DNA from: Herbidospora yilanensis
GTDB taxonomy: Bacteria; Actinomycetota; Actinomycetes; Streptosporangiales; Streptosporangiaceae
Length of the DNA stretch: 64,000 nucleotides
Assembly: GCF_001570565.1 (NCBI RefSeq)
Contig: NZ_BBXE01000030.1
Coordinates: 1 to 64,000 of the forward strand
Reading direction: 5' to 3'
Shown here piece after piece: positions 4,288-51,889 of this stretch. The notes beneath the pieces were generated by a model. The model was given only the letters and a program-made list of their open reading frames with translations. It did no database searches and was not told where the DNA came from. The translations under genes were made by a program, and so were the position numbers. How positions within the stretch are numbered: position 1 is the stretch's first letter; each line of letters opens with the position of its first letter.

Positions 4288-12667
<8,380 letters not shown>

Positions 12668-12678
<11 letters not shown>

Positions 12679-18070: not shown

Positions 18071-18073
18071 CCC

Positions 18074-28222: not shown

Positions 28223-28233
28223 GGACGCCCGAC

Positions 28234-37200: not shown

Positions 37201-37422
37201 AGCATCGTGGCCGCCCTGCGCCGCGAGTTCGCCCTCGCCGAGCTCCCGCCACACATCTTGTACGAGGCGCCGACCGTGGCCGCGCTCGCCGTGACCATCG
37301 AGGCCCTCACCTCGGGACCCGCACCGGCGTCGGGGACGGCGGCCGAGAACGGGGGCAGCCACGTCCGCGCTCAGCTCCGCCGTTCGGGCCTGGAGTCGTC
37401 GGCCTCCCGCCGGCGCCGATGA
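28234..37422 (+). CDS. Type I PKS E: modules 5 and 6 (two KS-AT-KR-ACP)
   Basis: This 3062-residue bimodular protein has an ATG 9 bases after GAGG. An in-frame GTG at 28219 that overlaps the PKS D stop is an alternative start. The N-terminus is acidic, with ADDV repeated three times. Module 5 has a KS with C193 in SYCSTSL, an AT with GYSLG (S646) and HAFH (746-749), a KR with TGGLGDVG near 1156 and Y1295, and a carrier with GGNSL (S1432). Module 6 has a KS from about 1501 with C1673 in TFCSTSL, an AT with GYSLG (S2141) and HAFH (2240-2243), a KR with TGGLGGIA near 2674 and Y2826, and a carrier with GGNSL (S2985). Neither module has a DH, ER or methyltransferase, so both should leave hydroxyls. 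The AT substrate (malonyl or hydroxymalonyl) is not certain. The C-terminus ends in a basic tail (RAQLRRSGLESSASRRRR) and no thioesterase. Confidence 0.93.
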   Translation: MRADDVADDVADDVIDDEGAGTDIAIVGMSGRFPGASGVAELWAAIRAGRSGVTRFTDEELRAAGVPGELLADPGYVKAGAVIDGVELFDAGFFGFSPKEAQILDPQHRLFLEHSWEALEDAGCDPTRFDGAIGVFGGSAWSSYLQNNLVPSEIGAVMGELAVGLANDKDSLTTRVSHTLGLSGPSYSVQSYCSTSLVAICAAASSLAAFESDLALAGGVAVGVPQRVGYLYQQGGIAPPDGECRAFDAGGLGAPLGSGVGVVALRRLEDALADGDQIYAVIRGWAVNNDAGRKVGFTAPGVQGQAAVMAEALAAAGLAPADIDYVEAHGTGTALGDAAELAALQQVFQGQNLLIGSVKPNVGHLDRAAGVTNLIKAALALRHGEIPPTRNLSTPNAQLSAGEARLDVVTALRAWPHGAGRTRRAGVSAFGIGGTNAHVVLEEAPPLSRPADTSRPQLLIWSARSAKAADELTARLADHLADTPDLRLGDVAHTLRAGRRVFEHRRFLVAATAGEAVAGMRDTGVQGRAESRGDRPVGFLIPGTGEQYPGLAEDLYTTEPAFRAALDECRAILRARMNGADPLEEMLRPRDTRSGGGLGALLGRDAAASGPMPTTLLHPALFSVEYALARTLIGWGVTPAVLAGYSLGEYVAACLAGVLSLESALALVAHRATLIDTLPEGAMSAVPLGAADLAARITRAGVAGIDVAAENGPDLTVLAGEPAAMEAVRALLAADGIPCRPLATGHAFHSRMMEPVRAGLTAWIAANIELSGPRIPYVSNVTGELITEAQATDPGYWAEHMCAPVRFDAMLGTLLAQGDHALVELGPGQSLGAMVRAHRDCPRERWPLVVSTLPAAADPRPAGSVLAEAVGRLWLAGAPIDWPGYRQDRPAAKVGLPTYPFQRERYWIDAPAGRPAEAPRLAAEPDHDHVQLLESRWAAEALPAETHTIGRHVLFADGTGVADALARSLRADGGEVVTVRAGASFAEIPGGFTVDPASAADHVALARRLAEGGPVVVADLRLLDPHDGPDGRAVVPLARLLDAFGDEGGESTRVVVATLGGQAVAPGEHADPAQAAAATLPITGNQEYLALDCRGVDLDPRASAAGHADALAAELRGTSADVLVAYRNGRRHVREFVPAAAAKAHTGVRPGGTYLITGGLGDVGLLVGEHLIRAGAGRLVLTSRSGPRGDAAERLRALGAEVLTPRVDVTDAGAMRAMLAGVGRVDGVVHAAAETGPDTFLPLRDVTEAAVARHFGAKVTGARVLAAVLEGHEPDFCVLFSSTSAILGGIAFGSYSAANAALTALARRPGWLAASWDTWSVTLERLDGGMGAGMAAHSMTAAESLAALDQVIAIGRPAVVVAAGGLADRLPKVAAGPAPAHAAERFPRPELPQPYSPPLTGTERALAELWSEVLGVEPVGTRDNFFDLGGNSLVALQMLALVKKRFGVAVPTVLLFEAPTVNRLAAILDERGATASPVKPAAKPPARPAVPVAATRDDDDRRIAIVGMAGRFPGAGDVDAFWRNLRDGVESISFFTPEELRAAGVDEALVHDPAYVPARPVLDDVAGFDAQFFGISPRMAALTDPQQRLFLEVCWEALEHAGYGAPGHRGRVGVYGGANISTYLLHMGDRLLREDEDVSHYEIIMGNDKDALTTTVSYLFDLHGPSVAVQTFCSTSLVATHLAVQSLRAGDCEMALAGGVSIRVPDKVGHVFGPGGMESPDGHVRTFDAQARGSMFGDGAAVVLLKRLSDAIRDGDHVWAVIRGSAMNNDGALKVGYTAPSVVGQARVIADAMADAGVTGEDISYIEAHGTATELGDPIEVAALTRAFGPTEETRYCPIGSVKTNVGHLDRAAGASGLIKTSYALTNQLIPASLHYTAPNPEIDFDNSPFYVNAELSPWRTRDGRPRIAGLNSLGMGGTNVHMVIEEAPARPARVEDEKGRRHQILPVSARNAVAAEQAARRLGEHLAAASGTRLADAAYTLQVGRKTFEHRKVIVATTTADAARILTGEAAQDGLLSRVDTVQGRQAAFLFAGVGEQYPGMVTEIYRREPAFRAALDECLEVLAGPLDGVDLPGLVAGGRGAGDDLAVLLGRAEAGAGDGRAGTLRRTEIAQPALFAVEYALARTLMAWGVQPRLMLGYSLGEYVAACLAGVFSLPDAIALVAHRAKLIGAMPAGSMVAVSMSAEDVRRRFRLERRGLDVAAVNGPQASVVAGPPEEMARLVAELRRAEIPCRALDTTHAFHSRMLQPVAGELTDWVKANIRLNPPELPYISNLTGELADADQVCDPGYWAEHMCGTVRFGAGVETLLADPELAVVEIGPGQSLGALVRGAGCPPRRWPLILHALPGASDRRPDDEVLAGCLARLWLVGAELDWNAYHGRLPEAGTAGLPGRIPLPTYPFQRRRYWIEGTPAVAGPKAGQQAKPAALDGGNLFDAIAGLPKLPEEQWLHLPVWRQTAAPAPSVDQPRSWLVFTREGAADEVTAELAATGATVIPVRPGGGYAATGGGHTVRPGSVADALALLRELRAAGHGLDRVLHLWTLEPGDDTVEYGLHTLVALARAAGESGVDGWSLDIAVSGTQEVLPGEVRNPDGSTLIGPSLVIPLEYPRVTTRFIDVDTPSGLVAELARPQTDRIVALRRGRRHLPGYEIMATPEASPEAARLRDGGVYLITGGLGGIALGLAERLARDVKARLVLLGRSGLSDRDEAARRRSAQVQAIRDLGGEVEIVVGDVSDPAAVKRAVDTAIERFGALHGVLHAAGLPAMGLMQFKRPKELDAVLAPKIAGTRALAEALRVGEPGEIELDFLALFSSITSATGGGPGQVDYCAANAYLDGYALRLAATGRNVVSIDWGEWTWNAWEAGLAGYDEGLQTFFRENRARVGIGFEEGYRSLLRALAGGEPRVIVSTQDFETVVTGSALFNLEAVTAPAGAGAAGDRHPRPELVTPYQEPSGPREEAIAVIWGDALRLDQIGVLDNFFELGGNSLLGVSIVAALRREFALAELPPHILYEAPTVAALAVTIEALTSGPAPASGTAAENGGSHVRAQLRRSGLESSASRRRR
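28240..28275 (+). repeat. 12-bp tandem repeat x3 encoding the acidic N-terminus of PKS E
   Basis: GCTGACGACGTG occurs three times in tandem and encodes Ala-Asp-Asp-Val each time. It builds the acidic tail that could pair with the basic C-terminus of PKS D. Confidence 0.9.
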
Positions 37423-37463
37423 GCGCCATCCGTCAGCACGACAACCAGAGAAACGGAGAGGTC

Positions 37464-38312
37464 ATGACAGTTATCGGTGTGGTGGGCGCCGGCGTGATGG
37501 GCGTCGGCGTGGCCCAGAACCTGGCCCAGACCGGCCACGATGTGGTCCTGGTGGACAAGGACGAGGAGATCCTCGCCGCCGCCCGCGCCACCATCTGGCG
37601 CAACGCCAGGATGAGCCGCCTGATGGGCGGCCCGGCCCTGGACCCCGATGACGTGTTGTCCCGGATCACCACCGCGGTGGGCGCCGAGGCGGTCGCCAAG
37701 GCCGACGTCGTCATCGAGAACGTGACGGAGAACTGGGACGTCAAGCGGTCGGTCTACGAGACGATGGACGCGGTCTGCGGGCCGGACACCATCTTCGTCG
37801 TCAACACCTCCGCGATCCCGATCACCAAGGTCGCCGCCGTCACCGGCCGCCCCGACAAGGTGGTCGGGGTGCACTTCATGAACCCGGTCCCGGCCAAGCC
37901 GGCGTGCGAGCTGATCCCCGGCTTCCACACGACCGCCGAGACCGTCGAGCGGGTCCGCGACCTGCTGTCGGCGATGGGCAAGAAGGCCATCGACGTCAAG
38001 GACGCCTGCGGGTTCGTCTCCAACCGGGTCCTGATGCTCACCGTGAACGAGGCCGCGTTCCTCGTCCACGAGGGCGTCGCCACCGCCGAGTCGGTCGACG
38101 AGGTGTTCCGGAGCTGTTTCGGCCACCCGATGGGCCCGCTGGAGACGGCCGACCTGATCGGGGTCGACACCATCCTCTACAGCGTGGAGGTGCTCTACGA
38201 GCACTACGCCGACAGCAAGTACCGCCCTTGCCCGCTGCTCAAGCAGATGACCGACGCGGGCCTGCACGGCCGCAAGTCGGGCCGCGGTTTCTACACCTAC
38301 GACGCCAAGTAA
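37464..38312 (+). CDS. 3-hydroxyacyl-CoA dehydrogenase-like (FkbK-type) for hydroxymalonyl-ACP
   Basis: This 282-residue protein belongs to the 3-hydroxybutyryl-CoA dehydrogenase family. The Rossmann motif GAGVMGVG is at the very N-terminus, followed by VIENVTENWDVKR, NTSAIPITK, the VGVHFMNPVP catalytic-His segment and DACGFVSNRV. The start at 37464 is chosen for its GGAGAGG site. An ATG at 37419 overlapping the PKS E stop would add 15 residues with no homology. In the FK520 pathway the FkbK enzyme oxidises the C3 hydroxyl of glyceryl-ACP. The following three genes complete that route. Gene order K-J-I-H matches the known cassette, and no O-methyltransferase is present, so hydroxymalonyl-ACP rather than methoxymalonyl-ACP is the likely end product. 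Confidence 0.9.
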   Translation: MTVIGVVGAGVMGVGVAQNLAQTGHDVVLVDKDEEILAAARATIWRNARMSRLMGGPALDPDDVLSRITTAVGAEAVAKADVVIENVTENWDVKRSVYETMDAVCGPDTIFVVNTSAIPITKVAAVTGRPDKVVGVHFMNPVPAKPACELIPGFHTTAETVERVRDLLSAMGKKAIDVKDACGFVSNRVLMLTVNEAAFLVHEGVATAESVDEVFRSCFGHPMGPLETADLIGVDTILYSVEVLYEHYADSKYRPCPLLKQMTDAGLHGRKSGRGFYTYDAK

Positions 38313-38334: not shown

Positions 38335-38583
38335 ATGTCCGGCAACGCCAAGGAACAGATCCTCGACTTCGTGCGCGCCCGCTACCCGCAGGCGGACATC
38401 GACGAGACCCAGGACATCTTCGCCCTGGGCTTCGTGAACTCGCTGTTCGCCATGGAGCTGGTGATGTTCATCGAGAAGACCTTCGAGGTCACCATCCCCA
38501 ACGACGAACTGAAGATCGACAACTTCCGGACCGCCAACACCATGGCGGAGCTGGTGGACCGGCTTTCCCCCGCGCGGGTCTGA
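38335..38583 (+). CDS. Discrete acyl carrier protein (FkbJ-type)
   Basis: This 82-residue free carrier protein has its phosphopantetheine serine in LGFVNSLFAMELV (S36). The ATG follows AAGGAG. It is flanked by the dehydrogenase and the acyl-CoA-dehydrogenase-like gene, with one base to the next start. In the FkbH pathway the glyceryl group is loaded on such a carrier and stays tethered through both oxidations until an AT transfers the finished extender unit. Confidence 0.92.
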   Translation: MSGNAKEQILDFVRARYPQADIDETQDIFALGFVNSLFAMELVMFIEKTFEVTIPNDELKIDNFRTANTMAELVDRLSPARV

Positions 38584-38584
38584 G

Positions 38585-39745
38585 ATGACGACCCTGGCTG
38601 AGACCGCGCCGGGCACGCTTCAGGTCACCGACAGGAAGTCCGCCCGCGCGTTCGTCGACACCCACATCGTCCCGTACGCCGACGCGTACGACCGGCAGGG
38701 CCGGGTCCCCGAGGAGCTGCTGGAGCGGATGACCGCCGCCGGGCTCTGGGCCCCCTTCCTCCCCCGGGACACCGGCGGCGGGGAAATGGACGGGGGGATG
38801 GACCTGGTCACCCTCGGCGAGGTCCACGAGGAGGTGGGCCGGGGCTGCTCCTCGGTGCGCAGCCTGCTCACCGTGCACACGATGGTGTCGTGGGCGGTGC
38901 AGCGGTGGGGCAGCCCGGCCCAGCGCGAGCAGTGGGTGCCGGCGCTCGGCCGGGGAGACGTGCTCGCCGCGTTCTGCCTGTCCGAGCCCGGCGCCGGCAG
39001 CGACGCCTCCGGGATCGCCAGCAACGTCGTGGAGAAGAACGGCGGCTGGGTGCTCAACGGCGTCAAGAAGTGGATCACCAACGGCCAGCGCGCCGACCTC
39101 TTCCTGGTCTTCGCCCGCACGGCCACCAGCATCGGGGCGTTCCTGGTCCCCAGGGACAGCCCCGGCGTCGAGGTGACGCCGATCGAGGACATGCTCGGCA
39201 CCCGGGCGTCGATGATCGCGGAGATCTCCTTCCGCGACGTCGCGCTCGGCCCGGACGCGCTGCTCGGCCCGAGCGGCTTCACCGCCGGCATGGTGCTGAC
39301 CGGCACCCTGGACCTCGGCCGCTACAGCGTGGCGACCGGCTCGGTCGGCATCATCCAGGCCGCGCTGGAGGCCTGCGCCGCGTACGCCTCCCGGCGCACG
39401 GTCGGCGGGTCGCTCCTCAAGGATCTGCCGCTGATCCAGGCGAAACTCTCCGACATGGTCACCGACGCGCGGGCGGCCCGCCTGCTCGTCGCGGAGGCCG
39501 GTCGGCTCAAGGACGCCGGCGAGGCGTCCACGATCATGGCGACCTGGGTGGCGAAGTACTTCGCCTCCACCGCCGCCGCCCGGCACGCGTCCGAGGCGGT
39601 CCAGATCCACGGCGCGAACGGCTGCGGCCACGACTACCCGGTGGCGCGGCTGTACCGGGACGCCAAGGTCATGGAGATCATCGAAGGCAGCAACGAGATC
39701 CAGCGCGTCACCATCGCCAGCCAGGCAGAACGGGAGATCATCTGA
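38585..39745 (+). CDS. Acyl-CoA dehydrogenase-like (FkbI-type), extender-unit oxidation
   Basis: This 386-residue flavoprotein has the full acyl-CoA dehydrogenase fold. The FAD/substrate motifs are CLSEPGAGSDASG and WITNGQRADL, then RYSVATGSVGIIQAAL in the C-terminal helical part, and the catalytic base E367 in IIEGSNEIQRV. The start lies 1 base after the ACP stop, and its own stop shares a base with the FkbH start (TGATG). In the methoxymalonyl/hydroxymalonyl route this enzyme (FkbI) oxidises the ACP-bound glyceryl derivative. The sequence supports the family and the context supports the role. Confidence 0.9.
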   Translation: MTTLAETAPGTLQVTDRKSARAFVDTHIVPYADAYDRQGRVPEELLERMTAAGLWAPFLPRDTGGGEMDGGMDLVTLGEVHEEVGRGCSSVRSLLTVHTMVSWAVQRWGSPAQREQWVPALGRGDVLAAFCLSEPGAGSDASGIASNVVEKNGGWVLNGVKKWITNGQRADLFLVFARTATSIGAFLVPRDSPGVEVTPIEDMLGTRASMIAEISFRDVALGPDALLGPSGFTAGMVLTGTLDLGRYSVATGSVGIIQAALEACAAYASRRTVGGSLLKDLPLIQAKLSDMVTDARAARLLVAEAGRLKDAGEASTIMATWVAKYFASTAAARHASEAVQIHGANGCGHDYPVARLYRDAKVMEIIEGSNEIQRVTIASQAEREII

Positions 39746-40824
39746 TGACCGTGGTCGACGAAAGCCCCCTTGTCGTCCCGGAGAAGCCGGTCCAGGGCCG
39801 GATCAAGTGCGTGGTCTGGGACCTGGACAACACGCTCTGGGACGGCGTGCTGCTGGAGGACGGCGAGGTCACCCTGCGGCCCGCGGTGGCGGCGCACATC
39901 CACCGGCTCGACCAGATGGGAGTGCTGCACTCGATCGCCAGCAAGAACGACCGCGAGGCCGCGCTGGAGAAACTGCGCGAGTTCGGCCTCGACGAGATGT
40001 TCCTGCACCCGCAGATCAACTGGAACGCCAAATCCGACTCCATCGCGCGCATCGCGAAGGCGCTCAACCTCGGGCTGGACGCCTTCGCCTTCGTCGACGA
40101 CCAGGAGTTCGAGCGCGGCGAGGTCGGGCACGGCCTGCCCGCCGTCACCCTGGTCGACATCGTGGACCTGGAGGAGGCGCTGGCCCGGCCGGAGTTCATC
40201 CCCCGGTTCGTCACCGACGAGTCCGCCCAGCGCCGCCCCATGTACCAGGCGCAGGCCGCGCGGGACGATCTGGAGTCCGGTTTCGTCGGCACCAACGAGG
40301 AGTTCCTGGCCGGGCTGGAGATGCGGTTCACCATCGCTCCGGCCGTGCGGGACGACCTCCAGCGGGCCGAGGAGCTGACGGTCCGCACCAACCAGCTCAA
40401 CTCGACCGGCCGCACCTACTCCTACGAGGAACTGGACGAGCTGCGCGAGTCGCCCGACCACCTGCTGCTGGTCGCCTCCCTGACCGACCGGTTCGGCAGC
40501 TACGGCAAGATCGGTCTCGCCCTGGTGGAGAAGGGTGAGCGGGAGTGGCGGCTCAACATGATGCTGATGTCCTGCCGGGTGATGTCCCGCGGCGTCGGCA
40601 TGGTGCTGCTCAACCACATCCTGCGGCTGGCCCAGGCGGCCGGCGTGAGCGTGCGCGCCGACTTCGTGGAGACCGGCCGGAACCGGATGATGCAGGTCAC
40701 CTACGCCTTCGCCGGATTCCGCGAGGTCAGCAGGGACGGCGTCCACGTGGTGCTGGAGGCCGACCTGACCACCGTCCAGCCGCCGCCGCCCTACGTCCAC
40801 TTGGAGATCGTCGATGAGCTTTGA
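39745..40824 (+). CDS. fkbH: FkbH-like glyceryl transferase/phosphatase
   Basis: This 359-residue HAD-superfamily protein has the DxDxT motif as VWDLDNTLWDGV (D26, D28, T30), followed by SIASKNDREAA and AFVDDQEFER. An N-acetyltransferase-like C-terminal half contains RTNQLNSTGRTYSYEEL, as in FkbH and its relatives. FkbH takes the glyceryl group from 1,3-bisphosphoglycerate, removes the phosphate and loads it on the discrete ACP. It shares one base with the upstream gene and overlaps the thioesterase gene by 11 bp. Tetronate pathways use the same enzyme to make glyceryl-ACP, but the two oxidoreductases next to it favour hydroxymalonyl-ACP here. Confidence 0.92.
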   Translation: MTVVDESPLVVPEKPVQGRIKCVVWDLDNTLWDGVLLEDGEVTLRPAVAAHIHRLDQMGVLHSIASKNDREAALEKLREFGLDEMFLHPQINWNAKSDSIARIAKALNLGLDAFAFVDDQEFERGEVGHGLPAVTLVDIVDLEEALARPEFIPRFVTDESAQRRPMYQAQAARDDLESGFVGTNEEFLAGLEMRFTIAPAVRDDLQRAEELTVRTNQLNSTGRTYSYEELDELRESPDHLLLVASLTDRFGSYGKIGLALVEKGEREWRLNMMLMSCRVMSRGVGMVLLNHILRLAQAAGVSVRADFVETGRNRMMQVTYAFAGFREVSRDGVHVVLEADLTTVQPPPPYVHLEIVDEL

Positions 40825-41590
40825 CGACGCCGGCCGGTGGATGCCGTTCGCGGGCCAGACCGGCGCCGGCCCCGGCGCGCTCGCGCTGTACTGCCTGCCG
40901 CACGCAGGTGGCGCCGCCTCCACCTACCGGAGCTGGCAGCGAGTCCTGCCGGGGGTGGCCGTCCAGCCCATCCAGCTCCCGGGCCGGGACAGCAGGCTCA
41001 GGGAGCCCGCCTACGACCGGATGGGCCCGCTGGTGGCCGACCTCGCCGAGATCATCCAGGCGGACGTCTCGCTCGGCTCGATCGACCGCAGATACGCCCT
41101 GTACGGCCACAGCCTCGGCGCGCTCGTCGTGTTCGAGCTGGCCCGGGAGATCCGCCGTCGCGGCGGCCCGCCGCCGGTGCACCTGTTCGTCTCCGGTTCG
41201 GTCGCTCCGCAGCTCGCCTACGAGGACGGCAAGCCGGTCGGGCAGATGTCCCGGCCGGAGGTCGTCTCGATGCTCCGCGAGCTGGGCGGCACGCCGGAGT
41301 GGCTGCTGACCGATCCCGGCGTGCTGGACATGATCCTCCCGGCCGTGGTCGCCGACTTCACGATCAAGGAGACCTACGAGTACCGCGACGAGAAGCCGCT
41401 GGACCTGCCCATCACGGCCATGCCCAGCACCGACGACCCCCGGATCAAGGCCGAGACCGTGACGCCGTGGGGAGAGCAGACCACCCGGGAGTACGAGCTC
41501 CAGCCGTTCGTCGGCGGACACTTCGCGGTGTTCGAGCAGGCCGCGCTGGCCCACAAGCTCATCTCCAAGGCCCTGCTCAAATGGATGTGA
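40814..41590 (+). CDS. Type II thioesterase
   Basis: This 258-residue alpha/beta hydrolase is of the discrete PKS/NRPS thioesterase class. LPHAGGAASTYRSW is the oxyanion-loop motif, GHSLG carries nucleophile S100, and GGHFAVF carries His236. It most likely edits stalled or wrongly primed carrier domains. No PKS in the window has its own terminal thioesterase, so a part in release cannot be excluded, though type II enzymes rarely do this. It overlaps FkbH upstream by 11 bp and the phosphopantetheinyl transferase downstream by 10 bp, so it belongs to the same long operon. Confidence 0.92.
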   Translation: MSFDDAGRWMPFAGQTGAGPGALALYCLPHAGGAASTYRSWQRVLPGVAVQPIQLPGRDSRLREPAYDRMGPLVADLAEIIQADVSLGSIDRRYALYGHSLGALVVFELAREIRRRGGPPPVHLFVSGSVAPQLAYEDGKPVGQMSRPEVVSMLRELGGTPEWLLTDPGVLDMILPAVVADFTIKETYEYRDEKPLDLPITAMPSTDDPRIKAETVTPWGEQTTREYELQPFVGGHFAVFEQAALAHKLISKALLKWM

Positions 41591-42225
41591 CGGACTCCTT
41601 CGTGTGGCGGGTCCACCTCGATCAGCCGGATGGCGCGAGGTGGGCCCCGCTGCTTTCCGGGGACGAACGGGCCCGCGCGGCGGCGCTGGCGACACCGGCC
41701 GAGCGCCGCCGCTTCACGGTCGCGCACGGCGTCCTGCGGGCCGTCCTCGGCGGGCTCACCGGCCTGCCGCCGGCCGGTCTCGTCTTCGGCGCGGAGCCCG
41801 GCGGCCGGCCGTACCTGGCCGGCCGGCCGATCGACTTCAACCTGTCGCACTCCGAGGAGTGGGCGCTGATCGGGGTGGCCCCGCCGGGCCTGCGGGTCGG
41901 CGTCGACGTCGAGCGCGTCCGCGACGACCTGGACCATCTGGCCATGGCCCGGCATCTGTACCGGCCCGCCGAGGTCGACCACCTGACCCGGGCCGCCTCG
42001 CCCCGGGAGGAGTACTTCCGGCTCTGGTGCGCCAAGGAGGCGTACATCAAGGCGACCGGGGCCGGCCTGGCCGGCCTGCGGGACGCGCTGGTAACGCCGG
42101 AAGGGAACGCGACGGTGGGTTCGTCGCGTTCCCTTCGCTGGCTTGAGGTGGCGCCCGGCTACGCGGGCGCCGTCGTCACGACCGCTGTCACGACCGTTGC
42201 GACACCGGCACCACGTACCGGTTGA
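41581..42225 (+). CDS. Sfp-type 4'-phosphopantetheinyl transferase
   Basis: This 214-residue protein has the Sfp family motifs: [16 protein letters not shown] with the Mg2+ ligands D109 and E111, and [15 protein letters not shown] with K152 and E153. It would convert the cluster's many carrier domains to their active holo form. It is the last gene of the rightward operon. Its 3' end overlaps the convergent acyl-CoA-dehydrogenase gene by 38 bp. The C-terminal tail after the core fold (from about residue 190) is rich in Thr, Val and Ala and seems unstructured. Confidence 0.92.
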
Positions 42226-43348
42226 ACACCAGGTCCCGCAGCACGTCGTCACCGCCCTCCACGATCGACACGTACCGCACGTCCCGCAGCAGCTTGCCGA
42301 TCACCGCGTCGTGGGTGTAGCCCACGCCGCCGAACATCTCCGACGCGGCCGAGGCGATCTGCCAGCCGGTCTGGCCGCAGAACATCTTCGTGGTCAGCGC
42401 CGCCTTCAGCGTGCCCACCCGGAGGAACTCCGCGGCCGCGTCCGGCCGGGCCGCGATCTCGTCGTACCGGCGGGCCGCCGCCAGGCACTGGTTCGCCATC
42501 ACGTCGATCTGCATCTCGAACTGGCCCAGCTTGGCCGCGAACACCGCGTTGCCGGCCAGGACGGCGCCCTTGACCTGCTTGGACCTCCCGTACTCCAGGC
42601 ACACGTCCCGGATCCGGCGGGCGATGCCGAGCGCCGTCGTGGCGATCAGGATGCGGCTGGCGTTCAGCCCCACCTCCAGCAGCCGCAGCCCGTTGCCGCG
42701 CAGCACGTTGGCGGCCGGCACCCGGCAGTCGGTCAGCGTCACCTGATAGGTCGCCGAGGAGCGCAGCCCCAGCACGTCCCAGCGTTTGTCGATCCGGATG
42801 CCCGGCGTGTCCCGGGGGACCAGCACCGCGAGGTAGCCGGCCGGGTCGTGTTCGGCGCGGGCGACCACCACCAGGAACTCGGCGAAGTCGGCGTTCGTGG
42901 AGAACGCCTTCTCCCCGTTCAGCACGACGTCGTTCCCGTCGCGGCGGGCCGTCGTGGTGATCCTGGCCAGCTCGCTGCCCGCCGCGTGCTCGCTGCCGAG
43001 CGTCGCGCAGAACCCGCTCCCGGCCACCAGCTTGCCCAGGTAGTGGTCCCGCAGTTCGGGGGAGCCGTACCAGGAGACCATGCTGGTCGTCAGAATCGGG
43101 ATGAACAGGGTGAACGCGGCGCCGGCGTCGGCGTAGGCGAGTTCGGCGACGATCCGCACGCCGTCCTCCAGGCTGAGGCCGGGGCCGCCGTGCTCCTTCG
43201 GCACCCACCAGTTCGCCAGGCCGGTGTCCGCGAACCGCTCGTACAGCGGGAGCGGCGCCTCGGCCAGCGAGTCGAGGTAGGCGTCCTTGCCGATGAGCTC
43301 CCTGCGCGCGAACGCCTGGACCGAACGCACGTGCTCCGGCTGCCTCAT
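42188..43348 (-). CDS. Second acyl-CoA dehydrogenase-like flavoprotein
   Basis: This 386-residue protein has acyl-CoA dehydrogenase motifs: [32 protein letters not shown], the C-terminal [19 protein letters not shown] and catalytic Glu364 in [10 protein letters not shown]. Its ATG overlaps the stop of PKS G (ATGA), which links it tightly to that AT-less module. The FkbI-type enzyme already covers extender-unit synthesis, so this one may oxidise a carrier-bound chain or make a second unusual extender. Zwittermicin-type clusters contain two such enzymes for hydroxymalonyl- and aminomalonyl-ACP. Which acyl group it uses cannot be read from the sequence. Confidence 0.88.
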
Positions 43349-46300
43349 CCGGTCTCCCGTTCGTCCAGCAGCTCGGCCAGCATGCGCACCGTCGGGCACT
43401 CCAGCAGTCCCGTCACCGGCACCGACGCGTTCAGCGACTTGCGGATCCTGGTGGTCAGCTCGATCGCGAGAAGCGAGTGGCCGCCCAGCTCGAAGAAGTT
43501 GTCGGTGGCGCCGATCGGCTCGATGCCCAGCACCCGCGACCAGATGTCGGCCAGCGCCGCCTCGGTGCCCTCCCTCGGCTCCACGTAGGGGTTGTTGAGA
43601 TCCGGCCTCGGATGGCGTTCCTGGTCGTCGAGGGTGTCGTCGGTGTTGTGGATGTCGCCGACGACCCACTGCGCCAGCCGGCCCTCCAGCGGACCGGTCG
43701 AGATGACCAGATGGCCGACCCGGTCGGTGGCCGACAGGGCCCGCTCGAAGACGTCGACGCCTTCGACCGGGGCCATCGCGAAGCCGACCACGGCCTCGCT
43801 GTGGCCTTCCAGACGGCTGGCGTCGATGCTCCAGGTGTCCCAGTCGACGGTCACCCAGCGGCTCGCGCCCGCCACCCGGGACTGCCGGATGTAGGCGTCC
43901 AGCGCCGCGTTGGCCGCCGCGTACGGCGCGAGCGTCATGCCGCCCAGCACCGCCGCGATGGACGACAACGTGATCCGCCGGTCGGCGGCGTGCCCGCCGA
44001 GCACCTTCTCCAGCACGTGGAAGCCCTTGACCTTGGTGGACAGGTGGGCGTCGCACTGCGCGCGGTCCATCAGGTGGGCGAAGTTGAAGTACGCCCCGTC
44101 CTGCACGCCCGCGCCGTGCACCACCACGTCGATCCCGCCGAACCGCTCGACCGCGGCCTCGACCACGGCCGCCATCCGCTCCTCGTCCGCCACGTCGGCG
44201 GACAGGCAGAGCACGGTCGCGCCCCGGCTCTCCAGGTCCAGGATGTTGCGGACGTGCCGGGCGGTGCGCTCGCCGCCGGGGGGCGTCTCGGCCAGGAACG
44301 CCTCCCACTCCTCGCGGGGCGGCAGCGGGGAGCGGGCGGTGAGGACCAGGTTGCAGCCGTAGGCGGCGGCCAGGTGCCGGGAGAGCACGAGCCCGACATC
44401 GCCGAGGCCGCCGGTGATCAGCACGGTCTCGCCGTCCCTGATCGGGCGGGTGTCGTCGGTCGGCTCGTCGATCGGGAACTGCTCGTAGGCCCGCACCCAG
44501 GTCTCGCCGGCGCGGACCGCGACCGGGCCCTCGTGCGGGGCCAGGATCGCGGCCAGGATCTGGACGGCGTCGCCGACGGCGTCGGTGTCGATCGTGCGGG
44601 CCCGGATCCGGGGGTTCTCCTGGGCCAGGCTGGGGGCCAGCGCCGCCAGCGTGGCGTGCTCCGGGTGACGCAGGTCCGAGCCGAGCACACCGACCGCCCC
44701 CGAGGTGAGCAGGGCGAGTTCGGCGCGCGGCGCGGAGCCGCTGTTGTCGACCAGTTCCCTGGCCAGCGCCAGCACGGAGTAGAAGCCGCGGCGCTGTTCG
44801 GCGTCGAAGTGCGCGGACGGGTCCTGACCCGGTCCCGGCTCGGCCGCGGCCAGGCTGAACCCGTGGACGATCGCGCGGGGCGCGACCAGCAGCGAGTACA
44901 GCAGTTCGGCCATGTCATCGGGCTGGTCCAGCCGGATGGTGAAGTCTCCCGCGTCGTCCTGGCCGAAGCTCTCGCCGCTCCGTACCGCCGTGACCTCGGC
45001 GCCCGCCGCGTTCAGCCGGTCGATCAGAGCCTCGCCCCGGGCGTCGTCGGCGAAGACCAGCCAGGGACCGGCCGCCCGCAGCCGCTCGTCCAGGTCGGCG
45101 ACCGCGAACGGCCGCTGCCGCCAGGTCGGCAGGTACGTCCACTTCGACCGGTCGAACGTCTTGTCGTCGCTCACCGGGGCGGCCTGCATGTCCGGGTTGG
45201 CCTTCACCCAGTAGCGGCGCTTCTGCCACGGGTAGGTGGGCAGCTCGACCCTGCGGCCGGCCCCCCGGTGCAGCGCGGTCCAGTCGATCGTGCTGCCGGC
45301 CTGCCACAACCGGGCCAGCGTGGCCAGCAGCCACTCGGCCGCGGGCACCCCGTCGACGGGGGCGACGGCGATCTCCTCCGACGCCTGACCGGCGTCCTCA
45401 CGCGACACCTGCACGCCGAGCCGCCGCAGCCCGTCGGCCAGCGCGCCGACCGCGTCGTGCCGGTCGGTGCCGTCCTCGATGCCGATCACGGCGTCGACCG
45501 CCGCGAGCAGCTCCGGCCACCAGGCCGCCGGCACGCCCTCCGGCGTGACCAGGCGCACCTTCGGGTTACGGCGCTGGGTCTTGGCGTTGATCCAGCGGGA
45601 GGGGTCGGTCAGCGCCACGACCGCGTCGTCGCGGTCGGCGACCACGACCGCGCGCCGCAGCGCGAACCCGCCGCGCGACATCTGCAGGGTGAACGCCACG
45701 TCCGCGACGTCCTCGCCGGAGTCGCCGGCCAGGTGGGCGGCCAGCCGCTCGCCGAGCTCGTTCAGCGCGTTCTCGTCGCCCGCCGAGAACGTCAGCAGGT
45801 GCGGGCCCGGCCGGTGCGGGCGGGCCTCGCGCGGCGGCGCCTGCTCCAGCACGACGTGCGCGTTGGTCCCGCCGAGGCCGAACGAGCTGACCCCGGCCCG
45901 GCGCGGATGCGGGCCCTCCGGCCACGGCCGGTGCTCGGTCAGCACGGTGAACCGGTCCTGCGCGGTGGCCAGCGCCGGGTTCGGCTGGACGTAGTCCGGC
46001 ACACCCTGGAGCAACTCGTGCTTGAGGCTCAGCGCGGCCCGCATCAGCCCGGTCACACCGGAGGCCCGGTCGAGGTGACCCAGGCTCGGCTTCAGCGAAC
46101 CGAGCACGGCCGGGGTCTCCCGCGGCTGGGTGAACACCCGGTTCATCGCGGCCAGCTCGATCGAGTCGCCCAGCATGGTGCCGGTGGCGTGGCACTCGAC
46201 GTAGCCGATGGTGTCGGGTTTGACCCCGGCCACGCCGAGCGCCGACTCGATCACGTCGGCCTGGCCGTCCACGCCCGGCGCGGTGTAACCGGCCCGCATC

Positions 46301-47130
46301 CGGCCGTCGTTGTTGGAGGCCGAGCCGAGGATGACTGCGTGGATCACGTCGCCGTCGGCGAGCGCGTCCGACATGCGCTTGAGCGCGACCGTGCCGACGC
46401 CGCTGCCCATCACGGTGCCGCCCGCCTCGGCGTCGAAGCTGCGGACCTTCCCGTCCGGCGACATGATGCCGCCCTGCTCGTACAGGTAGCCGGCCGGCTG
46501 GGGGAGCGGCGTGAACGCGCCGCCGGCCAGCGCCATGTCGCACTCGTACGTCAGCAGGCTCTGGCAGGCCAGATGCACCGCCACCAGCGACGTGGAGCAG
46601 AACGTCTGCACCGACACCGCCGGTCCGCGCAGCCCCAGCTTGTACGACACCAGCGACGCCAGCGAGTCGCGCTCGTTGCCGATCGCCATCAGCATCGCGC
46701 CGCCCGGCGCGTTGGTCAGGTGGAAGATGTTCTTCACCACGTAGTCGGGGAACCCGCACCCGCCGAACACCGCGACCTGCCCAGGCACGTCGGTGGGGCA
46801 GTAGCCGGCGCCCTCCAGCGCCTCCCACGAGCACTCCAGGAACAGCCGGTGCTGCGGGTCCATCATCTCGGCCTCGCGCGGGTTGATCCCGAAGACCCCC
46901 GCGTCGAAGTGCTCCAGGCCGTTCAGCGGGCCGCCGATCCGCACGTAGCGCGGGTCGGCGATCTGCCCCGGCTCGACGCCGGTCTCGCGCAGCTCCTCGT
47001 CGGTGATCTCGCGCAGGCCCTTGATCCCGGACAGTACGTTCCGCCACAGGTCGGCGACGCTGTCGGCGCCCGGGAAACGACCGGACATGCCGATCAGCGC
47101 CACCGCCGAGGCGTAGTCGGTTTCTGTCAT
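43345..47130 (-). CDS. Type I PKS G: module 8, KS-(no AT)-KR-ACP
   Basis: This 1261-residue module has an intact KS (C178 in [22 protein letters not shown]). Next comes the KS-AT linker ([13 protein letters not shown], near 447). The expected AT of about 300 residues is missing: only about 190 residues separate the KS end from the conserved post-AT linker [12 protein letters not shown] near 633, and there is no GxSxG or HAFH. The KR is complete (TGGLGDVG; Y1070). The carrier site is FFELGGHSL (S1219). The open frame is continuous, so this is a clean deletion. It ends LLDERETG with neither a basic docking tail nor a thioesterase, which suggests the terminal module. The start overlaps the PKS F stop (ATGA), preceded by AAGGA. 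The module must be loaded in trans, act without extension, or borrow a neighbouring AT. Confidence 0.93.
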
Positions 47131-50100
47131 GACGTCCTTCCGCTCCGGAGCATGTTCCGCCGCTGTTCGATGCGCGAGGTGCGCTGCTGTTCGCGCACGT
47201 CGGCCGTCTGCTCTTCGTTGGCCTCGCCCGCGGTGGCCGCTTCGGCGAGCGATGAGATCGTGGGCGACTGGTAGAGGATGTGCGGTGGGAGGTAGGTCAG
47301 GCCGAGCGCCTTCCGGACCTCCGCGATGATCTCCATGCCCAGCAGCGAGTTGCCGCCCAGCTCGAAGAAGTTGTCGTGGACCCCGACCGACTCCAGGCCG
47401 AGCGCCTCGGTCCACACCTCGGCGATCTTCTCCTCGGCCTCGTTCTGCGGCTCCACGAACGCGGTCGACAGGTCCGGCCTGGGGTGCCGGCCGAAGGCGT
47501 CCCTGAGCTTCTTGACCGTCGCCTGGTGGCTCTCGATCGACGACTTGCGGCTCATCGCGACCAGCGGCGCGAAGTCCTGCGTGGAGGCGACGACATGGCG
47601 TTCGCCGCTGTTCAGCACCCGTACGAGGGTCTCGAAGCCGTCCTCGAAGCTGAGCCCGAACAGGCCCCGGTACCAGGTGAAGTACTGCTTGGAGCCCTCG
47701 TCGTAGTTCTCCAGGCCCTCCGTCCAGCCGTTCCAGGTCCACTCGCACCAGTCGACCGAGGTGACCAGCGCGCCGGGCAGCGGGTCGCTGAGCGCGAAGG
47801 AGTCCAGGAACGCGTTGGCCGCGCAGTAGTCGACCTGGCCGGCGCCGCCGCCGGTGGCGGAGGTGGTGGAGGAGTAGAGGGCGAGGAAGTCGACCGGCAC
47901 GTCCTTCAGCACCTCGGCCAGGGCCAGCGAACCGGCCACCTTCGGCGCGAGCGTGCGCTCGATGTCGGCCACGGTCTTGAACTGCATCAGGCCGACCGCC
48001 GGCACGCCCGCGCAGTGCAGCACGCCGTTGAGCTCGCCGAACCGCTCGATCGCCGCGTCGACCGCCCGCCGCACGTCCGCGACCTTGGACACGTCGCCGG
48101 CCACGGTGACGACCCCGGCGCCGCCCGCCTCCAGCCGGCGCAGCCCCTCGACGCGCCGCCGCACCTCGTCGGCGGTGGCGGGGGCGGCCAGGATCTGGTT
48201 CCACTGGTCCTTCGGCGGGACCGCGGTGCGCCCCATGAGGACCAGGTTGGCCTGGTACTTCGTGGCCAGCAGCTCGGCCATGCCCAGGCCGATGCCGCCC
48301 AGACCGCCGGTCACCAGGTACGTCCCGCCGCGCCGCACATCCACGACCGGGGCGGTTCTGTCGATGTTGGCGGCGTCCAGCACCTCGTAGCCGGGCGTCC
48401 AGCGGCGGCCTTCGCGCAGCGCGACGACCTGGTCGGCGGGGTCGGCCCGCAGCTCGGCCAGCAGCCCCCGCAGGGCGGCCGGTCCGGTGCCCGCGTCGAT
48501 GTCGATCAGGCGGGTCTTGACCCTCGGGTACTCGACGGGGATGAGCCGGGTCGGGCCGAGCAGCGTGTTGCGCTCGGGGAGGATGTCGTCGCCGGTCAGC
48601 ACCTTCTGGCTGCCGACCGTGACGATGTCCAGCGCCCAGGCCGGCAGGCCCAGGTCGACCGCGGCCCTGGCGAACGAGACCAGCGTGTAGAGGCCGCGCT
48701 TCAGGCACTCCTGGGTGGCGTCGCCCTCGGCGGGGGCCGGGTCGGCGGTCCACAGGTGCACGACCCGCTCCGGCGTGAAGTCACGGCCGCCGAGCGTCCG
48801 CAGAGCGGCGACGATGTCGTCCTGCGAGCCGGGGCGGACGACGAAGCCGTCGGGGGTGTCGGCGTAGGCGTCGCCGGGCCGGACCAGGACGACCTCGTGG
48901 CCGAGCGCGTCCAGCGCGGCGCGGACCGATCCGGTCAGCGTGTCGGCCAGGCCCGCGTCGGTGAAGAGCAGCCACTTGGTCTGCTCCTCCTCGCGTACGA
49001 GCTGGGGCGCGGTCTGCCGCCACACCGGGACGTTGATCCACCGCTCGTCGGGCAGGCGCGGCAGCGCGGTCGCGATGCTGGTGGGGTCGCTCTCGTCCAG
49101 CATGGGCACGCCGGTGGTCAGCGCCGACTGGTCGATCTCCAGCCAGTAGTCCTGGCGGTCGAACGGGTAGGTCGGCAACGGCACCCGGCCGGGCGTCCAG
49201 CCGGTGTGCAGGGCGTCCCAGTCGATCGGAACCCCGGCCAGCCAGAGCTTGGCGACGGCGGTCGCGGTGGCGGCGAGCGTCTCCACCTGGTCGCCCTGGC
49301 CGGGCAGGGTGGTGACGATCAGCGGCCACTGGTCGCGGTCGCAGCCGGGGTGGCCGCGGGTCAGCGCGCCGAGCGACTGCCCGGGGCCGATCTCGGTCAG
49401 GGTCATGTCGCCGCCGCGCAGCACGTGCGCGAGCCCGGCGCCGAACTCGACCGTCTCGCACATGTGGCGGGCCCAGTAGCCGGGGTCGGTGATGAGCTCG
49501 GCGGTGGCGATCTCGCCGGTGACGTTGCTGACGTAGGGGATGGCCGGCGGGTTCAGCGTCACGTTGGCGCTGATCCAGGAGGTCAGCTCGGCCGCGACCG
49601 GCTGGAGCATCCGGGAGTGGAACGCGTGGGTGGTCTGGAGGCGGCGGCAGCCGATCTCGGCCGCTCTGAGCCGCGCCGCGGCGGCCTCGACGCTCTCCTC
49701 GGGCCCGGCCAGCACGAGTTGCGAGCCGGTGCGGACCGCGACGTCGAGGTCGAGGTCGCCCAGCACCGCCTTCAGCCGCTTCTCGTCGGCGGCCACGGCC
49801 AGCATGCCGCCCTCCGGCTGGGAGGTGATCAGCTTGGCCCGGTAGGCGACCAGCTTGAGCGCGTCGGCCAGCGACAACACCCCGGACAGGCAGGCCGCGA
49901 CGTACTCGCCGAGGCTGTAGCCGACCATGATCTCCGGCTTGACGCCCCAGCTCATCAGCAGCCGGGCCAGCGCGTACTCGGCGACGAACACGGCGGGCTG
50001 GATGAGATGCGCGTTCGGGGCCGACCGCGGGGAGGCGTCCCCGGTCCGCCCGAGCAGCGCGGCCAGGTCGGGGGCGTTCGCGGGTCCGGCCGGGACGAAG

Positions 50101-51848
50101 ACGTCGGACAGCTGGGACGCCTCGGTGAGGCCCAGCAGGCTGACGCACTCGTCCACGTCCGCCCGGAAGCCGGGCTCGGCCTCGTACAGGGCGGCGACCA
50201 TGCCCGGATACTGCTCGCCGACGCCGGCGATCAGGAACCCGGTCTTGCGGCCGACCGCCGTGTCGGTACGGCCCAGCGGCCCGGCGGGGTCCGCGAGCAG
50301 CGCGGCGGCCTTGGTGTTGTCGTCGGCGATGACGACCTTGCGGTGGTTGAAGACCTTGCGGCCCTTCTGGAGGGTGTAGGCGATGTCGCCCAGGTCCAGG
50401 CCGGGGTCGGCGGCGATGCTCTCGCCCAGGCGGGCCGCCATCCGCTCGGCGGAGGCGGCCGAGCGGGCCGACACCGGGAGGATCTGCCAGCGGCGGGGCC
50501 GCTCCGGGCGCGCGGCCGGGACGGGGGCCTCGACGATGATCGCGTGCGCGTTGGTGCCGCCCATGCCGAGCGAGCTGATCCCGGCGATGCGCGGCCGGTC
50601 GGCGCCGCGCGGCCAGGGGGTGGGCTGGGACGTGACGTAGAACGGGCTGGTCTCGAAGTCGATCTCGGGGTTCGGCGAGGTGTAGTGCAGCGTCCCGGGG
50701 ATCAGCTCGTGCCGCAGCGACTGGACGACCTTGATCAGGCCGGTCGCGCCGGAGGCGCGGTCGAGGTGGCCGACGTTCGGCTTGATCGAGCCGAGGATGC
50801 AGTACTGCTTCTTCTCGGTCTGGCCGAACGCCCTGGTCAGGGCCGCGACCTCCATCGGGTCGCCGACCTCGGTGGCGGTGCCGTGCGCCTCGACGTAGGA
50901 GATCTGCGACGGGTCCACGCCCGCCTTCTCGATCGCCTTGGCGACGCAGCGGCGCTGGCCGTCGATGCTGGGGGCCAGGTAGCTGAACTTCATCGCGCCG
51001 TCGTTGTTGATCGTCGATGCGCGGATCACCGCGAGCACGGTGTCCCGGTCCTCGATCGCCTTGCCCAGGCGCTTCAGCGCGACCACGGCCGCGCCGTCGC
51101 CGAACATGCTGCCCCGGCCCTGCGCGTCGAAGGTCCGCACATGGCCGTCGGGCGACTCCTGGCCGCCCTCCTCCCAGAGGTAGCCGGTCCGGTCCGGGAT
51201 CCGGACCGAAACGCCGCCCGCGAGCGCCATGTCGCACTCGTCCCGGCGCAGCGCCTCGCTCGCCAGGTGCACCGCGACCAGCGAGGTCGAGCAGAACGTC
51301 TGCACGGTCACGCTCGGCCCGGACAGGTCCAGCCGGAACGACACGTTCGTGGCCAGCGAGTCCTTGTCGTTGCCGATCATCAGCGCCGACGTGTCGATGC
51401 CCATGGCGAACGCCTGGAGGCGGGTCAGCAGGTAGCCGCTGATGTTCATGCCGGCGAACACGCCGACCGAGCCGCGGCTCTCCGGCGAGCCGTACCCGGC
51501 CGACTCCAGGACCTCCCACACGCATTCGAGGAAGAGCCGCTGCTGCGGATCGGCCAGCGTGGCCTCGCGCGGGTTGTAGCCGAAGAACGCCGCGTCGAAG
51601 CCGCGGATGTCATCGAGAATCGGCCGGCTCCGGACGTAGTTCGGTTTCGAGAACGTCGCCGCCGGCACGCCCGCCTCGATCAGTTCCTCATCGGAGAAAC
51701 GCGTGAAGGATTCGACGCCGGTGCTGATGTTCCGCCAGAACGTTTCGACGTCATTGGCTCCCGGGAATCGACCGGCCATGCCGATGATCGCAATATCGGA
51801 CTCGTCCGCGGGGTATTGCGAGTCACCAGGTGGATGTTGCTGAGTCAT
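47127..51848 (-). CDS. Type I PKS F: module 7 (KS-AT-KR-ACP)
   Basis: This 1573-residue protein starts at the ATG at 51848, placed 7 bases after AGGGG. A GTG at 51866 and an ATG at 51854 are in frame but poorly spaced. The N-terminus is short and acidic (DSQYPADESDIAIIG). The KS has C186 in TFCSTSL. The AT has GVGEQYPGM, the insert LAALLGR, GYSLG (S645) and HAFH (741-744). The KR has TGGLGGIG and Y1341 in DYCAAN. The carrier site is GGNSL (S1501). The domain sequences are closest to module 6 of PKS E. The C-terminal tail is basic ([16 protein letters not shown]). It lies 41 bp after the ABC permease gene and overlaps PKS G, so exporter, F, G and the dehydrogenase form one leftward operon. Confidence 0.93.
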   Translation of the reverse strand: MTQQHPPGDSQYPADESDIAIIGMAGRFPGANDVETFWRNISTGVESFTRFSDEELIEAGVPAATFSKPNYVRSRPILDDIRGFDAAFFGYNPREATLADPQQRLFLECVWEVLESAGYGSPESRGSVGVFAGMNISGYLLTRLQAFAMGIDTSALMIGNDKDSLATNVSFRLDLSGPSVTVQTFCSTSLVAVHLASEALRRDECDMALAGGVSVRIPDRTGYLWEEGGQESPDGHVRTFDAQGRGSMFGDGAAVVALKRLGKAIEDRDTVLAVIRASTINNDGAMKFSYLAPSIDGQRRCVAKAIEKAGVDPSQISYVEAHGTATEVGDPMEVAALTRAFGQTEKKQYCILGSIKPNVGHLDRASGATGLIKVVQSLRHELIPGTLHYTSPNPEIDFETSPFYVTSQPTPWPRGADRPRIAGISSLGMGGTNAHAIIVEAPVPAARPERPRRWQILPVSARSAASAERMAARLGESIAADPGLDLGDIAYTLQKGRKVFNHRKVVIADDNTKAAALLADPAGPLGRTDTAVGRKTGFLIAGVGEQYPGMVAALYEAEPGFRADVDECVSLLGLTEASQLSDVFVPAGPANAPDLAALLGRTGDASPRSAPNAHLIQPAVFVAEYALARLLMSWGVKPEIMVGYSLGEYVAACLSGVLSLADALKLVAYRAKLITSQPEGGMLAVAADEKRLKAVLGDLDLDVAVRTGSQLVLAGPEESVEAAAARLRAAEIGCRRLQTTHAFHSRMLQPVAAELTSWISANVTLNPPAIPYVSNVTGEIATAELITDPGYWARHMCETVEFGAGLAHVLRGGDMTLTEIGPGQSLGALTRGHPGCDRDQWPLIVTTLPGQGDQVETLAATATAVAKLWLAGVPIDWDALHTGWTPGRVPLPTYPFDRQDYWLEIDQSALTTGVPMLDESDPTSIATALPRLPDERWINVPVWRQTAPQLVREEEQTKWLLFTDAGLADTLTGSVRAALDALGHEVVLVRPGDAYADTPDGFVVRPGSQDDIVAALRTLGGRDFTPERVVHLWTADPAPAEGDATQECLKRGLYTLVSFARAAVDLGLPAWALDIVTVGSQKVLTGDDILPERNTLLGPTRLIPVEYPRVKTRLIDIDAGTGPAALRGLLAELRADPADQVVALREGRRWTPGYEVLDAANIDRTAPVVDVRRGGTYLVTGGLGGIGLGMAELLATKYQANLVLMGRTAVPPKDQWNQILAAPATADEVRRRVEGLRRLEAGGAGVVTVAGDVSKVADVRRAVDAAIERFGELNGVLHCAGVPAVGLMQFKTVADIERTLAPKVAGSLALAEVLKDVPVDFLALYSSTTSATGGGAGQVDYCAANAFLDSFALSDPLPGALVTSVDWCEWTWNGWTEGLENYDEGSKQYFTWYRGLFGLSFEDGFETLVRVLNSGERHVVASTQDFAPLVAMSRKSSIESHQATVKKLRDAFGRHPRPDLSTAFVEPQNEAEEKIAEVWTEALGLESVGVHDNFFELGGNSLLGMEIIAEVRKALGLTYLPPHILYQSPTISSLAEAATAGEANEEQTADVREQQRTSRIEQRRNMLRSGRTS

Positions 51849-51889
51849 CAACATGCCCCTATTCACCGAATTTTTAGGTGGAAATTCTT

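Follow-up and report, generated by a model that had tools for sequence, protein, structure and literature searches.

The locus described here raises the question of how a polyketide synthase (PKS) module that contains no acyltransferase (AT) is supplied with its extender unit. The window, the whole stretch of DNA that was analysed, comprises 64,000 nucleotides of Herbidospora yilanensis (assembly GCF_001570565.1, contig NZ_BBXE01000030.1, positions 1 to 64,000). The terminal module of its assembly line, PKS G (43345..47130, reverse strand, 1261 residues), was assigned from Pfam as a ketosynthase (KS), a ketoreductase (KR) and an acyl carrier protein (ACP), with no AT between KS and KR and without a thioesterase (TE). 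That the AT of this module is gone while KS, KR and ACP are retained was confirmed, and that the module elongates is well supported. On balance, we think it probable that the extender used by PKS G is hydroxymalonyl and that it is delivered by the AT of a sibling module further upstream, either PKS F or module M6.

Loss of the AT from a conserved module

The Pfam matches in PKS G are the KS (residues 8–374), linker families (383–508), PF21394 (691–854), the KR (902–1101) and the ACP (1192–1255). No match to the AT family PF00698 was obtained in PKS G at E ≤ 1, and the same scan detected the AT of the neighbouring PKS F at residues 544–828. From KS start to KR start there are 894 residues in G compared with 1158 in F, about 264 fewer. 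The expected place of the AT is taken by a hypervariable spacer (45343..45540, reverse strand; alignment and hhalign). Aligned with an AT profile in hhalign, the residual region of PKS G reached a probability of 0.5%, or 0.3% for a wider slice; the controls scored 99.9 (another cis AT), 99.4 (a discrete AT) and 98.6 and 97.4 (two decayed ATs). Both linkers of the AT are kept, namely the KS–AT linker region (45607..45984, reverse strand; PF16197, PF22621 and PF22336) and the post-AT linker of the LPTYPW type (45196..45342, reverse strand), in which 13 of 49 aligned positions are invariant. The window contains nine KS and eight AT domains, and one of the nine modules is without an AT, unlike a trans-AT system, in which all or most modules lack it. 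All AT matches sit in multidomain PKS frames, 1586 residues long or longer, and no free AT was found in the window.

A genome scan returned 31 close PKS G loci (62–96% identical) from Herbidospora, Nonomuraea, Acrocarpospora, Planobispora, Planomonospora, Microbispora, Sphaerisporangium, Actinokineospora, Labedaea and a Catenulisporales metagenome-assembled genome (MAG); in a family survey PKS G was present in 14 of 150 genomes. Conservation was evaluated on 31 proteins (window, 29 loci and S. cattleya), 30 of them full or nearly full length, with one frameshifted locus (L024) and two partial loci (L027 and L031) excluded from the counts. All 30 orthologues are without an AT: an unfiltered AT profile search gave at most 0.1 bits, and G[HYF]SxG occurs at residues 440–700 in none of them. 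The KS has 177 invariant positions of 375 and the spacer has none of 66. Seven catalytic residues are invariant in 30 of 30, namely Cys178, His314 and His352 of the KS (46009..47109), Ser1056, Tyr1070 and Asn1074 of the KR (43828..44427) and Ser1219 of the carrier domain (43366..43557), all on the reverse strand and assigned from Pfam and the orthologue alignment. In four PKS G pairs, the ratio of nonsynonymous to synonymous substitution rates (dN/dS) was 0.24–0.35 overall, 0.11–0.25 for the KS, 0.31–0.38 for the KR part, 0.11–0.30 for the ACP and 0.37–1.12 for the short spacer. A sequencing artefact or pseudogene was ruled out by the conservation and the low dN/dS across orthologues and, judged from the same alignments, PKS G is a maintained AT-less module, not a case of single-strain decay. 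The original prediction, which was made from the nucleotide sequence of the window, was borne out on all these points: removal of the AT from PKS G together with its GxSxG motif, active-looking KS, KR and carrier sites, retention of both linkers, ATs in all other modules and the lack of a free AT in the window.

The Nonomuraea dietziae PKS G gene (L024:10001-11176) is frameshifted after about 391 residues, either through a sequencing error or as a pseudogene. Distant matches of about 3 kb were considered as additional AT-less modules; this was unsupported, as 37 of 46 such loci hold an AT-like stretch somewhere.

Elongation by PKS G was judged from the butyrolactol cluster of Streptomyces sp. 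TP-A0882, which carries the same cassette and whose last PKS, Orf18, has 1169 residues (PMC5355916). Labelling of butyrolactol accounts for 11 units: six acetate pairs, one propionate and four glucose-derived (hydroxymalonyl) pairs, the last at C1/C2, C3/C4, C5/C6 and C7/C8, with the extender proposed to be ACP-bound (PMC5355916). The published table, which alone represents the labelled strain here, likewise lists 11 extension modules (Orf11 three, Orf14 one, Orf15 two, Orf16 two, Orf17 two and Orf18 one). Orf17 is given as two AT modules, Orf16 as KS/AT/DH/ER/KR/ACP-KS/KR/ACP and Orf18 as KS/DH/KR/ACP (DH, dehydratase; ER, enoylreductase), and the entries without an AT are the second Orf16 module and Orf18. 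In a gene-order comparison, the listed reductive domains fit the carbon state, as judged from shifts, in nine of the 11 modules. The two misfits are the second Orf11 module, which is without the DH needed, and Orf18, whose listed DH faces a hydroxylated C3; no Pfam match to a DH was found in the S. cattleya Orf18 homologue. In addition, one predicted specificity disagrees: methylmalonyl is listed for the first AT of Orf11, the unit of which is acetate-derived.

Under collinearity, both AT-less butyrolactol modules would add hydroxymalonyl, Orf18 contributing C1–C2. Since the 11 modules fit the 11 labelled units, and since two of the four modules that fall on hydroxymalonyl are AT-less, the terminal module must elongate; the results section of PMC5355916 does not itself state that AT-less modules add hydroxymalonyl. 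By analogy with this labelling and module count, the extender of PKS G is probably hydroxymalonyl as well. In the homologous cluster of S. cattleya (pSCATT), all that is left of the AT in the second Orf16 module is a remnant of 19.9 bits with GHGVG in place of GxSxG, and no AT remnant was detected in the Orf18 homologue.

That PKS G does not elongate, and only passes on, reduces or aids release of the chain, had been one of three options of the original prediction. Such a role would suit a module without AT or TE at the end of the line; it is made very unlikely by the invariant KS and KR catalytic residues, by the low dN/dS and by the fact that butyrolactol needs all 11 extension modules for its 11 units.

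Candidate routes for loading PKS G

A hydroxymalonyl-ACP cassette is encoded on the forward strand of the window and adjoins the PKS genes as in a butyrolactol-type line. It consists of a 3-hydroxyacyl-CoA dehydrogenase-type enzyme (HBDH; 37431..38312), a discrete ACP that presumably carries hydroxymalonyl (38335..38583), an acyl-CoA dehydrogenase-type enzyme (ACAD; 38585..39745) and FkbH (39763..40824; TIGR01686, 287 bits, cut-off 147), which presumably transfers glyceryl to the ACP. The neighbourhoods of 13 of 32 loci (the 31 close loci and S. cattleya) were tabulated. The cassette is near PKS G in ten of the 13 and lies further out in Actinokineospora; an M6-type AT was found in nine of the 13 and in Actinokineospora. 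For the cassette survey the sequence of L027 and L031 is too short; wherever the sequence extends far enough, both the cassette and an M6-type AT are present. The Actinokineospora line is complete, with a loading module, M1–M6, F and G.

We infer by exclusion that the donor to PKS G is a sibling AT. In the mechanism proposed, the AT of G would have been lost once, before the split from butyrolactol Orf18, and hydroxymalonyl would be assembled by the cassette with the discrete ACP as carrier. From there the AT of F, or that of M6 where F is absent, would move it to its own carrier and would also charge the G carrier in trans, after which G would condense, reduce and pass the chain to release. 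PKS F (47127..51866, reverse strand; KS-AT-KR-ACP) has a GYSLG-type AT and is a candidate donor; its gene overlaps that of PKS G by four bases. The suggestion in the original prediction that G borrows the AT of module 7 comes near to this mechanism. As sole donor, PKS F was rejected: at the locus itself, in Sphaerisporangium, Labedaea and the Catenulisporales MAG (L022, L023 and L031), the interval from the transporter genes to G contains no F, so the role of donor would fall to an upstream hydroxymalonyl module, whether F or M6.

The candidate donors were placed by AT and KS trees. Modules M5 and M6 are encoded by one gene (28219..37422, forward strand) and have GYSLG-type ATs, that of M6 being the candidate donor in loci without F; module M4 (23501..28222, forward strand; KS-AT-KR-ACP) has an AT of the same group. 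In the AT tree, the ATs of M4, M5, M6 and F, all with GYSLG and HAFH, form one group (98/98) with the two ATs of S. cattleya Orf17 and those of S. album and Tengunoibacter, the last likewise having GYSLG and HAFH. A published table gives GYSxG for both ACP-dependent ATs and GHSxG for five CoA-dependent ATs (PMC4207774), and the butyrolactol counterparts of the S. cattleya Orf17 ATs fall on hydroxymalonyl units; the group is tentatively taken as hydroxymalonyl-using because of this motif and of the Orf17 modules. The KS tree comprised 38 domains, with G from the window and from eight of the 31 close loci and with no canonical trans-AT KS. Here S. cattleya Orf18 falls into a single clade with the nine G proteins (100/100), the sister of which is an AT-bearing Tengunoibacter module (100/99); M5 and M6/F have separate Tengunoibacter counterparts. 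On these relationships, the lost AT of G most likely belonged to the M4–F/Orf17/Tengunoibacter group. Tengunoibacter itself (L032:548-19390) has four consecutive modules with GYSLG ATs, those of modules 2 and 4 being near-identical through recent duplication or conversion.

Another route would require no AT for PKS G: the discrete ACP would present hydroxymalonyl to the KS for direct condensation, or FkbH and two oxidoreductases would build the unit on the ACP of G. The pathway proposed in PMC5355916 has the extender attached to an ACP. G is accompanied by the cassette in the loci counted above, the discrete AT described below is not common to all G genomes, and a second ACAD is encoded directly downstream of G (42188..43342, reverse strand; 28% identical to the cassette ACAD), adjoining PKS G in ten of the 13 loci. 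Against this route, S. album and S. cattleya have no second ACAD adjoining G; the ACP of G, which direct use would leave without an extender to carry, has an invariant Ser in 30 of 30; and sibling modules of the same line retain their ATs. We regard this route, the leading alternative, as unlikely. Modules without a working AT require four changes on the KS tree, at least three of them forced by well-supported branches. The KS of the second Orf16 module of S. cattleya groups with M4; as M4 has an intact AT, the loss in this Orf16 module is separate from that of G. It is conceivable, if improbable, that the separate losses in Orf18/G and in the second Orf16 module are steps on the way from cis-AT synthesis to elongation that is AT-independent and ACP-fed.

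Classical trans-AT loading was also considered. The original prediction had raised a trans AT and a search to the left of position 1, at which contig 30 begins. A discrete AT was indeed found, on another contig of the same genome (contig 38, 12018–12884). Among 20 AT matches in the genome, the only ones in short frames are this (C38:12198) and a presumed FabD (C21:28890). Judged by gene order in a relative, contig 38 may carry the missing left part of the line, and a short-frame AT lies 18–21 kb from the first PKS AT in eight of nine genomes listed in full. The discrete AT occurs in 18 of 22 PKS G genomes, and all 12 family genomes that hold it also hold PKS G. It has GHSVG and NAFH, and its best solved relative is FabD (154 bits), with the trans-AT enzymes PksC (129 bits) and DisD (126 bits) also among them.

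As the loader of PKS G, by which it would probably supply malonyl, the discrete AT is weakened by several findings. Its carrier motif is KIV with a basic first residue, as in FabD, and by the rule of PMC4207774 it looks CoA-dependent; the ACP-type carrier motif expected of a ZmaF-like discrete AT is not present in it. At E ≤ 1e-40 it was not found in four of the 22 G-bearing genomes (Actinokineospora, Labedaea, Sphaerisporangium and the Catenulisporales MAG), all of which hold G or part of it, the MAG being given without completeness. No free AT occurs in the 100 kb around the complete Actinokineospora line (C34:60001-160000). Conversely, genome G521 holds the discrete AT (61%) with a KS (69%)/ACP/GcvT cassette, and no PKS G was found there. 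The discrete AT and PKS G thus dissociate in both directions. The enzyme moreover has its own neighbouring ACP, GcvT-like protein and large FabF-like KS. The discrete AT exists off the window, and its loading of G is distinctly unlikely. Its cassette on contig 38 (L079:10724-19787; ACP, GcvT-like protein, large KS, discrete AT and SnoaL) may make a separate building block; the large KS scores 258.7 bits against the NCBIfam model for cispentacin AmcF (cut-off 325) and is not a member.

Loading of malonyl on G by the presumed housekeeping FabD (C21:28890-29708, a 337-residue frame) is most improbable. A short-frame AT of 310–347 residues is present in nine of nine relatives listed in full and in the genome of H. 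yilanensis itself, its identity as FabD being presumed; it would place malonyl at a position for which labelling of the butyrolactol orthologue indicates hydroxymalonyl.

Several points count against loading by a sibling AT. The discrete AT is frequent among PKS G genomes (18 of 22), holds the same position in eight of nine other genomes listed in full and has PksC and DisD among its solved relatives. An AT-ER fusion protein is encoded on another S. album contig; free ATs of Actinokineospora and Labedaea were assessed among the matches listed, and S. cattleya on the plasmid only. A cis AT may discriminate in favour of its own ACP, and no report of a cis AT loading a sibling module was found in open-licence PubMed Central papers. 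The assignment of hydroxymalonyl to the donor ATs also meets objections. The carrier motifs of M4–F (ACR, PCR, PCR and GCR) are unlike the hydrophobic one of ZmaA-AT, the AT of F scores higher against other PKS structures (217 bits) than against ZmaA (195 bits), and a ZmaA-like AT of Kroppenstedtia falls outside the M4–F group in the AT tree, beside two GHSxG ATs. The ATs of these lines are called malonyl in the published tables. Finally, no cassette gene occurs in the 24.6 kb Tengunoibacter module locus, the nearest FkbH being about 200 kb away, so the substrate of the Tengunoibacter AT is unsure.

The remainder of the assembly line

The loading module and modules M1–M3, with GHSxG-type ATs, are encoded by three genes (4288..23461, forward strand). 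A basic C-terminal tail is present on M4, M6, F and S. cattleya Orf17; PKS G stops straight after its ACP, which fits the last module of the line. A discrete thioesterase (40814..41590, forward strand) is a possible release or editing enzyme. Adjoining the loading module is a pyridoxal phosphate (PLP) decarboxylase (806–2020; TIGR03099, 577 bits, cut-off 478); the family is named for the exosortase A system, and the window member is perhaps a starter-unit enzyme.

Comparison with known systems

The cluster itself has been described as pks-1 of H. yilanensis NBRC 106371 (Komaki, 2015; PMC4599437). The protein s18-orf17 is listed there with 1261 residues as KS/KR/ACP, and orf17 is given the same domains in all five type strains. 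Five of the seven PKS frames of the window match the sizes in Table 2 of that paper exactly (2796, 1800, 1795, 1573 and 1261 residues); the other two are given as 3062 and 1573 and measure 3067 and 1579 with the starts chosen here. Ordinary extender units were predicted in that work, and the parts of the text available carry no remark on the missing AT. The absence of the AT is already in print as a 2015 table entry, and no explanation of it was found in open-licence PubMed Central papers.

Modules with decayed ATs were noted elsewhere. In nonribosomal peptide synthetase–PKS lines of Kroppenstedtia (L061:10001-14149) and Paenibacillus (L062:10001-14140), the AT is by eye without the active-site Ser or the catalytic His motif, and an FkbH gene lies 8–15 kb away on the same numbered contig. 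The ZmaA-AT signature is present in the next Kroppenstedtia module, and these lines are perhaps zwittermicin-like. A module of an Opitutaceae MAG (L044:16522-20742) also has an apparently decayed AT.

If a sibling cis AT feeds PKS G, the reading of one AT per module, and the substrate prediction built on it, would fail for a cluster family that spans Streptosporangiaceae, Pseudonocardiaceae and Streptomycetaceae, with butyrolactol as a natural test case. If no AT were needed, ACP-bound extender units would offer a simpler engineering route to hydroxylated polyketides.

The zwittermicin system resembles that of Herbidospora in its hydroxymalonyl-ACP pathway and in ACP-dependent ATs, which are presumed for Herbidospora, ZmaF being a discrete AT for an ACP-bound unit. 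The use of ZmaF as a hydroxymalonyl analogue in the original prediction did not stand: ZmaF handles aminomalonyl, and the hydroxymalonyl AT of zwittermicin is ZmaA-AT (PMC4207774). In H. yilanensis, by contrast, the short-frame ATs comprise only one with FabD-like motifs and the presumed FabD. The trans-AT PKSs for disorazole and bacillaene likewise have AT-less modules that keep the KS–AT linker and are loaded in trans. The Herbidospora line differs from them in that a single module of nine is AT-less, the nearest KS relative in the tree keeps its AT and the regional free AT dissociates from G. AT-null DEBS provides a precedent for a cis-AT line that works without its AT if loaded externally; that system is engineered, and discrete ATs were used, not a sibling cis AT (PMC6164871).

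The closest parallel is the butyrolactol PKS, which has the same cassette and a terminal AT-less module, that of S. cattleya being orthologous to G by the KS tree. It differs in a second, internal module without a working AT, where the Herbidospora counterpart by KS grouping, M4, has an intact one; the additions on the Herbidospora side are module F, a further ACAD and, next to the loading module, the PLP decarboxylase. The arrangement is unusual yet not wholly new, being common to the Herbidospora line and to that of the antifungal butyrolactol.

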